Positions 40,550-46,995 of a DNA stretch of 64,000 nucleotides are shown in pieces (position 1 is the stretch's first letter; each line of letters starts with the position of its first letter). Source of the stretch: Thiohalorhabdus denitrificans (GTDB taxonomy: Bacteria; Pseudomonadota; Gammaproteobacteria; Thiohalorhabdales; Thiohalorhabdaceae); contig NZ_LJCP01000007.1 of the NCBI RefSeq assembly GCF_001399755.1, positions 310,001 through 374,000 on the forward strand, read 5' to 3'. A program made the translations under genes and the position numbers. The notes under the pieces are model-generated. The model ran no database searches and was not told where the DNA came from. It worked only from the letters and a program-made list of their open reading frames with translations.

Positions 40550-42599
<2,050 letters not shown>

Positions 42600-42838
42600 C
42601 ACTCTTCCTGCGCCGGTATTACCCGGTTCAGGTTCTAAGGGTCGTCCCGCCCTTGTAGCCTGCCGAGAACCTGTTGCGGAGGCCGTCTGCGGCGTTGCGC
42701 ACTGCTCGCTCCTTCACCTACCTGACCAGGTATGCTTCAGTCGCTGCGCAGTGTGCGCCTTGCAGCCGGCCTTCCTCTCGACGGTTCTCGGCAGGCTCCG
42801 TGGGACCTCTCAGCCGGTCTTCCCGGCTCCCCCGAGTG
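42600..42838 (-). promoter_or_regulatory. TPP riboswitch with a 165-nt insertion, upstream of thiC
   Basis: Read on the minus strand: P1 CACTC (42834-42838) pairs with GAGTG (42600-42604). Then come GGGGGAGCC, a short P3 (GCCGG/CCGGC) and the T-loop element CTGAGA (42808-42813). The second half, ACCCTTAGAACCTGAACC followed by GGGTAATACCGGCG (42611-42642), holds the pyrophosphate-binding helices. Between the CTGAGA and ACCC elements lie 165 nt instead of the usual few. This insert begins and ends with complementary GTCCC/GGGAC and a perfect 15-bp stem (42657-42671 with 42783-42797), so it can be looped out. All core nucleotides I can recall are present, so the aptamer is probably functional. 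Confidence 0.88.
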
Positions 42839-42970
42839 GTAGCCGCCCATGTTGCCGCAGCCTTTCCTCCCAGGCAAGTAGGCCCCCTACCGAGGTACAA
42901 CCGCGGGGCACGCGGAGGGCACGGATGGCCCAAAGACGATCGGGACCAAGGCCCGGCCGGCCGGCGAGCC

Positions 42971-43044
42971 CTGTGGGAGCGGTCCGGAACCGCGACCGGC
43001 AGCGAGCCCAGGCAACCGGTCGGGGTCGCGGACCCCTCCCACGG
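42971..43044. repeat. BIME-like pair of inverted REP elements
   Basis: TGTGGGAGCGGTCCGGAACC at the left and a degenerate complement ending in CCTCCCACGG at the right form a large imperfect palindrome between the thiC leader and the nosL stop. Confidence 0.6.
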
Positions 43045-43111
43045 TTTTCTCGAGCAGGGTGGCTTTCCTGCGGACCTTGATAGTCGGTCGGCAGGCCGAA
43101 GGATGCGATGC

Positions 43112-43654
43112 TCAGTGTCCTCCGTGGCCACCCTTCGGGGGGCCACCGCCGGGCAGCTCCGCCACCAGGTCCCGCTCGATGTCCGCGAATCCAAGGACCT
43201 CGCCGCCGTGCTCGGCTGCGAAGGTTTCCGCCTCCGACCGCTTACCGAAGGAGGCCAGCGTGGGGCCCATGGCGCCGCGGCGGTCGCTGCCCACCACGTA
43301 GTGGGCCTCCCTAGCCGGGATCCAGGCGCCCTCCGCCTTGTGCGGACGCTCCCAGGCGCTCTTCCCCATGTCGTTCACGTACATGACGGCGATCCGGTGG
43401 TCCTGCGGGCTGTCCTCCTCCAGCAGGAAGGCGAAGAAGTCCCGCGTGGAGCAGAAGTGCAGGGGGCGGTCCTCCCCCTTGAGGTGGAGCTGGGCCTTGG
43501 GCCCGGGGTAGTCCACCACGGTCATGCCGCAGACGGCGCAGCTGGCCGAACGGTCCGGGATCTGCGGGTCGGGCGTTGCGGTCTCCTGCCCGCCGCCGCT
43601 GCAGGCGGCGAGCAACAGGGTCAGGATCAGGGCGAGTAGGGGGGCTTTGGGCAT
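43112..43654 (-). CDS. nosL: Nitrous-oxide reductase accessory lipoprotein NosL
   Basis: This is a 180-residue outer- or periplasm-facing lipoprotein that delivers Cu(I) for NosZ maturation. The lipobox LLLAACSG sits at about residues 13-20. The NosL signature CAVCGMTVVDYPGPKAQLHL and the later FCSTRDFFAFLLE and YVND segments are visible. The C-terminal tail is Gly/His-rich (PPKGGHGGH) and may bind metal. It is the last gene of the nosRZDFYL order on the minus strand. No ApbE/NosX gene follows. Confidence 0.93.
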   Translation of the reverse strand: MPKAPLLALILTLLLAACSGGGQETATPDPQIPDRSASCAVCGMTVVDYPGPKAQLHLKGEDRPLHFCSTRDFFAFLLEEDSPQDHRIAVMYVNDMGKSAWERPHKAEGAWIPAREAHYVVGSDRRGAMGPTLASFGKRSEAETFAAEHGGEVLGFADIERDLVAELPGGGPPKGGHGGH

Positions 43655-43705
43655 GGTTTCTCTCGTTCTGGAAGTCGATGGGCGCCGCCGGGCGGTTTCG
43701 CCGTC

Positions 43706-44539
43706 CTAGGAGGACTCGCCCCGGTTGAACAGCCAGGCGGCCAGGGCCAGGGGCACGGCGGCCCAGGCGGCCAGGACCCCGATGAGCAGCGTCCGGGAGA
43801 ACAGGGCCTCGGGCACCACCGAGGCCAGCCCGGAGCTCAGGGCCACGGCGTCGAAGCCGGTCAGGTTGAGCAGGCGGTAGACGTCCGCCGGGTTGAGCAG
43901 CAACAGATAGGGGAACACCCCGCCGCCGATGGCGCCCTCCGTGGCCACCAGCGAGCCCAGCAGGAGCAGGTCGAAGACCAGCACGAAGACCAGCCACAGC
44001 AGCAGGGCCAGGCCGGCGGCGCGGGTCTTCTCGGCGACGGCCGCGGAGACTACGTAGGCCAGGCTCTGAAAGGCCAGGGCCAGCAGGATGGAGGTGGCCA
44101 CGAACAGGACGTAGGCTCCCCAGGCGCCGGACTCGCGGGCCTCGGGGGCCAGCATCGCCAGCAGGGCGCCGGCCACGGTGAACCCCAGCAGGATGGACAG
44201 GGACAGCACGGCCGCCTGCCCCAGGAACTTGCCCACGAAGATCTGCCAGCGCTGCACCGGGTGTCCCAGCAGCAGAAGCAGGGTGCCGGCCTCGCGCTCG
44301 CCGACGATGGCCCCGTAGCACAGCACCAGGGCGATCAGCGGGATCAGGTAGATGGCCAGGCTGGTGAGGCTGGCGATGGTCACCCCCATGGGGGTGAAGC
44401 CCACCTCGCCGCTCGGCGCGGCGCCGAAGTAGGCCAGCCCCAGGGCCAGCAGCGCCAGCATGAGCGACACCGCCAGCACCCAGCGGTTGCGGACGCCGTC
44501 GCGGAACTCTTTGCGGGCCAGGGCGAGAATCGGGCTCAT
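43706..44539 (-). CDS. nosY: NosY, ABC transporter permease of the nos system
   Basis: This is a 277-residue inner-membrane permease with six hydrophobic helices. It opens MSPILALARKEFRDGVRNRW and contains GEREAGTLLLLLGHPVQRWQ, both typical of NosY. With NosF and NosD it forms the ATP-driven unit needed to supply sulfur for the CuZ centre of NosZ. The ATG at 44539 has AGGAAG upstream, with an in-frame GTG one codon earlier. A 151-nt gap with a BIME separates it from nosF, unlike the tight nosD-nosF junction. Confidence 0.92.
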   Translation of the reverse strand: MSPILALARKEFRDGVRNRWVLAVSLMLALLALGLAYFGAAPSGEVGFTPMGVTIASLTSLAIYLIPLIALVLCYGAIVGEREAGTLLLLLGHPVQRWQIFVGKFLGQAAVLSLSILLGFTVAGALLAMLAPEARESGAWGAYVLFVATSILLALAFQSLAYVVSAAVAEKTRAAGLALLLWLVFVLVFDLLLLGSLVATEGAIGGGVFPYLLLLNPADVYRLLNLTGFDAVALSSGLASVVPEALFSRTLLIGVLAAWAAVPLALAAWLFNRGESS

Positions 44540-44595
44540 CACACTTCCTATCCGGTTCGGTCGGGGAGGGGGCGATAACCGCCCGCAAAGTTGCC

Positions 44596-44663
44596 GTGGG
44601 AGCGGTCATCGGCCCCGACAAATGCGCCACCGCAGGAAGTCGCGGCTGGTAGCCGCTCCCACA
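44596..44663. repeat. BIME-like inverted REP pair within the nos operon
   Basis: GTGGGAGCGG (44596-44605) and CCGCTCCCAC (44654-44663) are inverted copies flanking a spacer that fills most of the gap between nosF and nosY. Confidence 0.65.
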
Positions 44664-44690
44664 AGAGCGCTGGCATGGCGAAGCTGGCCA

Positions 44691-45629
44691 TCAATCGGCG
44701 CCCTCCCCGGTGAGGCCGAAATGGGTGTATATGTCCGCCAGGGAGGGCGGGGTCATGTCCACATCGGTGACGTGTTCGGCGGCGGTTGCCCGCTGCAGCA
44801 CGGCCAGCTTCTGTTCCTCGCCGCAGGTCACCGTCAGCCCTGTGTCGTCCGCTTCCGCCGCGACGCCCGTCAGGGCGGTCAGCTCGTCCCGGAGATCGCC
44901 CAGCCCGGTGCCGGAGATGCGGATCCGGAGCTGCAGGCCAGTGCGCCGGCGTAGGTCGCGCAGATCGCCCTGGGCCAGCAGGTGCCCCCGGCCGAGGATG
45001 GCCAGGGTGTCGGCGCGATCCTCGATCTCGGCGAGGATGTGGGAGGAGAGGATCACGGTGGTGCCGCGCGCCCGCAGGTCCTCCAGGCGGGCGTAGAACT
45101 CCTCGGTGGCCTGGGGGTCCAGGCCCACCGTCGGCTCGTCGAGCAGCAGGAGGTCGGGCTCGCCCAGCAGCGCCTGGGCCAGGCCCAGGCGTTGGCGCAT
45201 GCCCTTGGAGTAGGTGCGCACCTTGCGGTGGGCGGCGTGGGCGAGCCCCATCTCCTCCAGCATGGGGCCGCACCGGCGCCGGTCCACCCCCTTCAGGTCG
45301 GCGTAGAAGGCCAGCACCTCGGCACCCGTGAGCTGGTCGTAGAAGGCCACGTTCTCCGGCAGGTAGCCCACCCGGCGGCGGATGCGGGCCCCCTCGGCCC
45401 CCCGCGGCTCGCCGCCGAGCAGCCGCACCCGGCCGGTGGTGGGGGCGAGGATGCCGAGCAGCATCTTCATGACCGTGGTCTTGCCGGCGGCGTTGTGGCC
45501 GAGCAGACCCAGGATCCGGCCCCGGGGGATGGCCAGATCCATCGCCCGCACCGCCTCCACCCGCCCGAAGCGCTTGCCGACGCCCTCCAGCTCGGCGGCC
45601 GGCGATTCCGGTTGCTCCGCGCGGCTCAT
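44691..45629 (-). CDS. nosF: NosF, ABC transporter ATPase of the nos system
   Basis: This is a 312-residue ABC ATPase. Walker A is GLLGHNAAGKTTVMK, the signature is YSKGMRQRLGLAQALLG, Walker B is LLLLDEPTVGLDP and the switch His is in ILSSHILAEIED. A C-terminal extension of about 90 residues is typical of NosF. It energises NosY. The ATG overlaps the nosD stop by 4 nt, showing translational coupling. Confidence 0.94.
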   Translation of the reverse strand: MSRAEQPESPAAELEGVGKRFGRVEAVRAMDLAIPRGRILGLLGHNAAGKTTVMKMLLGILAPTTGRVRLLGGEPRGAEGARIRRRVGYLPENVAFYDQLTGAEVLAFYADLKGVDRRRCGPMLEEMGLAHAAHRKVRTYSKGMRQRLGLAQALLGEPDLLLLDEPTVGLDPQATEEFYARLEDLRARGTTVILSSHILAEIEDRADTLAILGRGHLLAQGDLRDLRRRTGLQLRIRISGTGLGDLRDELTALTGVAAEADDTGLTVTCGEEQKLAVLQRATAAEHVTDVDMTPPSLADIYTHFGLTGEGAD

Positions 45630-46879
45630 GGGGTGACTCCTTCCGGGTCCATGAGGGGATGGCGGTCGGTGACGCCGGGGCTGCGCAGGGCGGGGAACTG
45701 CTGCTGGATCCAGCGCAGGGTCTGCACCGCCGGGCTGTTCATGAGGATGCGCACCAGGGGGTACTTCCAGATGAGCTTGTCCACCATGTCGTTGGGGCGG
45801 TAGGGCACGTCGCCGATGCCGTCGCCGTCCGTGTCCCAGCCCAGGTAGTCGCTCCAGTAATTGCCTCGCCCGTCCCGCGACCACTCCTGCTCGCGGTTGC
45901 CCACGTATTTCACCTGGTTGCGGGAGTGCAGGAAGGCGTTCTGGTGGATGCGGTTGTGGAAGGAGCCGGCGGTGAGGTGGATGCCCACCTCGCAGCCCCG
46001 GAAGCGGTTGTGGTGGAAGTCGTTGTACTGGGCGTTGTAGACGAAGGCGCATTTCTCCGGGCCCGGGTCCACGCGGTTGTGGTGGATGGCGCTCTGCTTC
46101 ACGTAGTTGAGCAGGAGGCCGTAGTCCTCGTCGTCCGCGGAGCGGTTGTGGTGGACCTCCAGGTTGTCCGACATCATCAGGGCGTAGCCGGCCCGGGTGT
46201 CGTGGGTGCGATTGTTGGTCACCTCGTTGCGGTGGGAGTACATGTAGTGGACCCCGTAGCGGAGGTGGTGGAGGTGGTTGTCGTGGAGCACGTTGCCGCC
46301 GTGGGAGACCTCGATGTAGATGCCGTCGCGCGTCTCCCAGATCTCGTTGCCGGTGACCAGGGCCCCGGATACGTCCCATAGCTGTACGCCGTTGCCGCGA
46401 TCCGGGGAGACCACCTCGGCGTTGCCGTGGATGCGGTTGTCCCGGATCACCGGGGAGGCGGCGCCGTCCACCCAGATGCCCCAGGCGGTACGGTCGATGA
46501 AGCAGTCCTCGATGCGGGTGCCGGTGGCCGATCCCTCCACGAAGACGCCGGCGTTCATCTCGTTGAGGTCCATGCCGGAATGGCGGATCTCCAGGCCCTG
46601 GATGGTCACGCCCGGGGCCGTCACCCGGATCACGTCGCCGGAGCCGCCGCCGTCGAGCACCGCGTCCTCCTCGCCGGCGAGGGTCAGGGCCTTGTCGAGG
46701 CGCAGGGCCTCCACCGTGTGGGTGCCTTCGGGAACCACCACCGTGTCCCCCTCCGCGGCCCGGTCCACCACCTGCTGCAGGGCCTCCCCCGGCTGCGGCC
46801 GGAGCTCGGCGCCCCATGCGGGACAGGCGGCACCCGCGGCGAGCAGAACCAGGCCGATGATCCGGGCGGGAAAATGCAA
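45626..46879 (-). CDS. nosD: NosD, periplasmic copper-site maturation protein
   Basis: This is a 417-residue exported protein. A signal peptide (about residues 1-24, ending PAWGAE) is followed by a right-handed parallel beta-helix (CASH/NosD repeats such as IRDNRIHGNAEVV and VLHDNHLHHLRYGVHYMYSH). NosD works with NosFY to build the CuZ cluster of NosZ. The start is taken as the TTG at 46879, because it has GGAG 8 nt upstream and gives a clean signal peptide. Longer readings run through the BIME at 46925. Confidence 0.92.
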   Translation of the reverse strand: MHFPARIIGLVLLAAGAACPAWGAELRPQPGEALQQVVDRAAEGDTVVVPEGTHTVEALRLDKALTLAGEEDAVLDGGGSGDVIRVTAPGVTIQGLEIRHSGMDLNEMNAGVFVEGSATGTRIEDCFIDRTAWGIWVDGAASPVIRDNRIHGNAEVVSPDRGNGVQLWDVSGALVTGNEIWETRDGIYIEVSHGGNVLHDNHLHHLRYGVHYMYSHRNEVTNNRTHDTRAGYALMMSDNLEVHHNRSADDEDYGLLLNYVKQSAIHHNRVDPGPEKCAFVYNAQYNDFHHNRFRGCEVGIHLTAGSFHNRIHQNAFLHSRNQVKYVGNREQEWSRDGRGNYWSDYLGWDTDGDGIGDVPYRPNDMVDKLIWKYPLVRILMNSPAVQTLRWIQQQFPALRSPGVTDRHPLMDPEGVTP

Positions 46880-46924
46880 TAGCTCGACTCCGTGGAAACC
46901 GGGCAGGGCATGCCGGCAGAGCAG

Positions 46925-46995
46925 TGTAGGAGCGGCCAGTGGCCGTGATCCGGCCGGAGAGGTTCCCCATGTCGCGGCCACTGGCCGCCCCTACA
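46925..46995. repeat. BIME-like inverted REP pair between nosZ and nosD
   Basis: TGTAGGAGCGGCCAGTGGCC and its near-complement ending CCCCTACA (46988-46995) form a long palindrome in the gap after nosZ. It may stabilise the nosZ message relative to nosDFY. Confidence 0.7.

Follow-up and report, generated by a model that had tools for sequence, protein, structure and literature searches.

The thiC leader and its TPP aptamer

The window, a 64,000-nucleotide stretch of DNA from Thiohalorhabdus denitrificans (genome G000), carries on its minus strand, from position 42838 down to 42600, a TPP riboswitch that could be recognised by direct reading of the sequence. It lies 160 nt before an intact thiC gene (42439-40550). 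The genes upstream of the riboswitch, at 43112-46981 on the same strand, resemble a nos cluster (NosL, NosY, NosF and NosD) by reading of their open reading frames. The features of the locus are as follows:

40550..42439, minus strand: thiC, phosphomethylpyrimidine synthase, 629 aa, intact (NCBIfam NF006763, 1057.7 bits)
42440..42599, minus strand: putative expression platform, 160 nt, with a complement to the P1 3′ strand at 42530-42538 and a Shine-Dalgarno sequence, GGGGGAGG, at 42448-42455
42600..42636, minus strand: 3′ half of the aptamer, P4/P5 with the THI box (GAACCTGAACCGGGTAATACCGGCGCAGG) and the P1 3′ strand GAGTG (RF00059, 39.6 bits; model R1, 39.0 bits)
42807..42838, minus strand: 5′ half of the aptamer, with the 5′ strands of P1 and P2, the P3 hairpin and CTGAGA (model R1; fold)
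42834-42838 / 42600-42604, minus strand: P1, CACTC/GAGTG (sequence reading)
42829-42833 / 42637-42641, minus strand: P2, GGGGG/CCCTT (paired in the unconstrained MFE fold)
42808-42813, minus strand: CTGAGA (sequence reading)
42802-42806 / 42644-42648, minus strand: P3a, GTCCC/GGGAC (sequence and fold)
42657..42797, minus strand: near-palindromic insert of 141 nt in the P3a loop, assigned to a captured IS5-type MITE (dispersed copies in G000 and other gammaproteobacteria)
42783-42797 (5′ strand) / 42657-42671 (3′ strand), minus strand: perfect 15-bp stem formed by the terminal inverted repeat arms of the MITE (sequence and fold)

Both CTGAGA and the THI box (GAACCTGA...TAATACC) are present as exact pattern matches, and exactly 165 nt separate CTGAGA from ACCC, compared to 158 nt and 19 nt in the congeners G002 and G001, respectively. 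Among relatives from the class, the commonest spacing between CTGAGA and the P2 return strand is 3 nt, and relatives that have P3a show gaps of 11–19 nt, whereas P3a here spans about 160 nt because the MITE sits in its loop. The GTCCC/GGGAC pairing of P3a is also found in G001, where the insert is absent, and in G002, where it is present. A version of the pattern with a gap of 26–86 nt gave three matches in 369 genomes of the class, two of which seem, from the matched strings, to hold a nearer, true CTGAGA or TGAG. Tandem TPP aptamers were considered as a source of the long gap and rejected, since the locus has a single CTGAGA and a single THI box that are joined by the fold.

In the unconstrained MFE fold of 256 nt, P1–P5 all formed, and the insert appeared as one rod on stem P3a (−131.7 kcal/mol, z = −6.55, with none of 200 shuffles as stable). 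The 15-bp stem encloses a nested stem-loop of 111 nt, and the predicted helix of the rod is long and near-continuous (15 bp plus the nested stems), broken by internal loops. G002, with the insert, and G001, without it, folded into the same architecture. The sequence-only reading had described a TPP riboswitch with both halves intact but 165 nt apart, and this was confirmed by sequence, by fold and by an independent covariance model; its account of an insert that closes through GTCCC/GGGAC and a perfect 15-bp stem around a stem-loop of about 110 nt also held, and the facultative stem in which it had placed the insert is indeed P3a, between CTGAGA and the P2 return strand.

RF00059 of Rfam scored the window at 39.6 bits, below its gathering cut-off of 54.3, which is a curator's threshold and not a biological feature. 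The score is this low because the best alignment pairs a decoy P2 strand adjoining the insert, leaving the 5′ half of the aptamer unused. The covariance model R1, for which 16 relatives from the class but outside this genus were used, was searched without filters. It matched the 3′ half in the window and gave a separate match on the same strand to the 5′ half (42755-42843, 12.2 bits, E = 4e-4); the same two matches were found in G002, at 37.4 and 11.0 bits. The 5′ half, for which a covariance test had been proposed from the sequence, was thus not rejected by R1, although it is omitted from Rfam's best alignment. The empty-site aptamer of G001, with its 19-nt spacer, reached 72.7 bits with the Rfam model.

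In each of the three species, the P1 3′ strand has a complementary stretch downstream with which it can form a duplex (G000, −14.5; G001, −13.7; G002, −19.5 kcal/mol), and a search of the 160-nt leader (42440..42599) for an intrinsic terminator found none. Together, the shared pairing segment and the lack of a terminator-like site make translational control the likelier mode of thiC regulation.

The insert as a copy of an IS5-type MITE

The suggestion that the insert might be a captured repeat was borne out by dispersed copies that have target-site duplications and whose terminal inverted repeats match. A copy at C10:591585-591734 of the same genome matches the insert at 84% identity over 125 bp (E = 8.5e-32), and a second copy lies at C6:72688-72891 (L211). 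Both are flanked by 4-bp CTAG duplications. (The middle of the element in L211 is enlarged by a further insertion of about 54 bp.) Intact copies measure about 149 bp including two 4-bp YTAR duplications, which leaves an element of 141 bp, the length of 42657-42797. The distant genome G064 contains at least ten copies, most of them with 4-bp YTAR duplications and the ends CAGGNNGTTGAAAAAC; an 81-bp deletion form that retains both ends was also seen there (L213, G064:C90:7752-7832). MITE matches occurred in 21 of the 369 genomes of the class sample, and a search of plasmids gave one weak partial match only.

A likely autonomous partner was found in G001, where a 1341-bp IS5-family element (C5:95324-96664) has the same ends, CAGGNNGTTGAAAAAC, with one mismatch, and YTAR flanks. 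Its DUF772 and DDE transposase domains lie in two frames, and IS5_4 is the best NCBIfam match. (This split of the transposase points to a frameshift pseudogene or else to programmed frameshifting; the element corresponds to 1501-2841 of L181.) The ends and YTAR flanks that the MITE has in common with this element identify the insert as an IS5-type MITE. The thiC copy itself has no recognisable target-site duplication, and its ends have diverged from the consensus, yet they form a perfect, GC-rich 15-bp inverted repeat. Because of this divergence and loss, its membership in the family is judged from 125 internal bp (84% identical to the C10 copy), from its length and from its position.

A set of copies (L216, L238, L239, L240, L241, L242, L244, L245 and L249) have a common internal core, GACCGAGACATATC...GATAGGCGAGG...GCGAGC, and differ in their terminal repeats. 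Judging from copies of different families, it looks as if the core of the MITE has been kept while the ends were exchanged. A second dispersed family, REP-like and with 40 matches in the same genome, is represented upstream of the riboswitch by a long imperfect inverted repeat at 42960-43056 of the window.

Folded alone, the insert is strongly structured (z −6.7). When the observed substitutions were randomised, the resulting folds were far less stable than those of the real thiC inserts (z −5.7 to −7.3 in G000 and −4.2 to −4.8 in G002). However, the same randomisation applied to two ordinary genomic copies, L239 and L240, showed that these keep their fold as well (z about −3.6 to −5.4). The maintained fold is therefore a trait of the family and no proof of selection at thiC. 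Copying between the arms of the palindrome could be its source.

Inserts in the genus and in other lineages

The thiC gene of G000 is 92% identical to that of G001 and 86% identical to that of G002, and is intact in both G000 and G002. In G002, the insert occupies the same position and has the same orientation. In G001, the closer congener, the site is empty and contains only GTCCCGTTGGGCGGGAC, a short P3a hairpin. In a tree of the copies, the thiC inserts of G000 and G002 are sisters, apart from the other copies of G000 (UFBoot 85; FastTree 0.76). With this modest support, the simplest reading is probably a single insertion older than the split between G000 and G002, with later loss in G001; independent insertions in the two genomes are possible.

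The genomes of about 85,000 species were scanned for CTGAGA followed by a gap of 111–171 nt and a THI box, which returned 110 stretches. Most of these were discarded as chance upstream occurrences of CTGAGA with a nearer true one, or with a variant (GTGAGA, for example), which left eight genuine long inserts in P3a. One of these, L087, is G002 (the same locus as L041); the other seven are:

L068 and L151: two mesorhizobia, upstream of thiB, with 5–8 insert matches per genome
L099, L158 and L128: three Geobacterales-type genomes, upstream of a thiE/thiD fusion gene, with 5–41 matches per genome
L074: an alphaproteobacterial MAG, upstream of thiC, with 58 insert matches
L125: Thiocapsa imhoffii, upstream of thiC, with a 119-nt insert that is single-copy in its genome, no dispersed copies being found there

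In the mesorhizobia, the Geobacterales group and the MAG, the recurring part of the insert sits inside the P3a stem in each case. From this screen, which covered the P3a position only, at least three other unrelated lineages have independently kept dispersed palindromic repeats in P3a. The length of the insert had been called unusual, which holds in that such inserts are rare in the class; it is not unique, given the convergent captures in at least three other lineages. Moderate P3a lengths (gaps of 35–54 nt) were also noted in TPP aptamers of alphaproteobacteria and others (L112, L083, L069, L102 and L135).

Standard annotation misses TPP switches that bear such inserts: eight of the nine loci scanned score below the Rfam cut-off (the window, L041, L068, L074, L099, L125, L128 and L158), the only one above it being L151, with 60.6 bits over a 232-nt match.

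A probably tolerated palindrome in P3a

We consider it likely, on the model that best accommodates these observations, that transposition placed a 141-bp IS5-type MITE in the P3a loop of the thiC riboswitch, that the aptamer core was kept and the switch most likely still works, and that the rod is a tolerated passenger. Being palindromic, the MITE is predicted to fold on itself as a rod on P3a, with P1–P5 formed and the core undisturbed. Projecting from the P3a loop, such a rod would be directed away from the binding core, and this would explain why it was tolerated. The TPP-bound RNA would then most likely still repress thiC, through competition of P1 against a helix further downstream that affects the ribosome site, and the rod would be mostly a passenger.

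We considered the possibility that the insertion broke the riboswitch, leaving the aptamer halves as relics and thiC either constitutive or driven from elsewhere. The rarity of long inserts in the class and the Rfam score under the cut-off would fit such a history. However, the conserved bases of the aptamer are intact in both G000 and G002, in spite of a 14% difference in thiC, divergence being far greater in the insert and spacer, and the pairing of P1, P2 and P3a is perfect or nearly so; a broken switch is thus quite unlikely. Local growth of the stem from P3a by duplication or drift, with no mobile element involved, would account for the poor match of the terminal 15-bp arms to the consensus ends, but is largely refuted by the 84% identity of the 125 internal bases to a copy flanked by target-site duplications and by the length, which is that of the MITE. 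We regard it as extremely improbable.

Two further alternatives concern the rod itself. RNase III might cut it, by analogy with intervening sequences in 23S rRNA, so that a two-piece aptamer would be held together by P1, P2 and P3a. The long, near-continuous helix would suit the enzyme, which cuts transcripts at the ends of MITEs, the Correia elements (reviewed in PMC10969869), and excises the Coxiella 23S intervening sequence from helix 45 (PMC4990558); the helix is interrupted by internal loops, however, and we judge such a cut to be very unlikely. The sequence-only reading had also raised the idea of a composite regulatory RNA, in which the insert would be a second sensor or a protein-binding site that tunes thiC. 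The strong structure of the insert and the conservation of a core motif among distant MITE copies speak for it, but the core is conserved in the dispersed element and not only at thiC, the insert is missing from the closest congener, G001, and is elsewhere an ordinary dispersed MITE, and other lineages have different repeats at the same site. No Rfam family matched the insert above threshold, and no sigma-70 promoter-like or terminator-like site was found within it. The idea found no support and seems highly improbable.

To return to the tolerated MITE, a broader extension of this reading is that P3a is a recurrent site for the landing and retention of mobile palindromes, giving rise to working, possibly RNase III-nicked, two-piece TPP aptamers, a class expanded by transposons that annotation misses; we think this rather unlikely. 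Through its empty site and autonomous partner, the locus shows that a riboswitch can take up a hairpin of transposon origin in its ligand-binding domain and retain it with the core intact, with parallels in several bacterial groups. This supplies an origin for at least some variable riboswitch insertions and points to P3a as a natural place for grafting large RNA modules.

The riboswitch and the MITE are each of a known kind; what is new is their combination, the empty site, the autonomous partner and the repeated occurrence. A search of the literature, which covered few subscription papers, turned up no description of a MITE or other repeat within a TPP aptamer, and a 2024 review of MITEs treats riboswitches as a matter of speculation only (PMC10969869). 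Barrick and Breaker (PMC2258182) treat P3a as optional and predict that it stacks on P2; 552 of their 907 sequences have it. The thiC riboswitch resembles the RF00059 aptamers with P3a in having P1–P5, CTGAGA, the THI box, thiC downstream and P3a at the optional position; it differs by the MITE in the P3a loop and the score below the Rfam cut-off. With other IS5-family MITEs the insert has in common the 141-bp length, the inverted ends CAGGNNGTTGAAAAAC, YTAR duplications in other copies, the lack of a transposase and an autonomous partner, but the thiC copy lies inside an aptamer, its ends now pair without mismatch as a GC-rich stem of 15 bp, and a duplication can no longer be recognised.

Of the two nearest precedents found, one is in the pneumococcal trp operon, where a BOX element lies between two T boxes (PMC3049150). 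There, too, a mobile palindromic repeat is part of a composite leader in which the riboswitches seemingly still work, but the BOX repeat sits between two aptamers, whereas the MITE is inside one. The other precedent, the intervening sequences of 23S rRNA, likewise consists of selfish sequences that a functional RNA tolerates in one of its peripheral helices, but they are removed by RNase III (PMC4990558), which for the thiC insert is hypothetical. The common principle with the variable riboswitch insertions, as set out in the passages of Barrick and Breaker on such insertions (PMC2258182), is that particular sites in riboswitches can accommodate long stem-loops; those passages name no mobile-element origin, whereas here such an origin is shown, and in several lineages.
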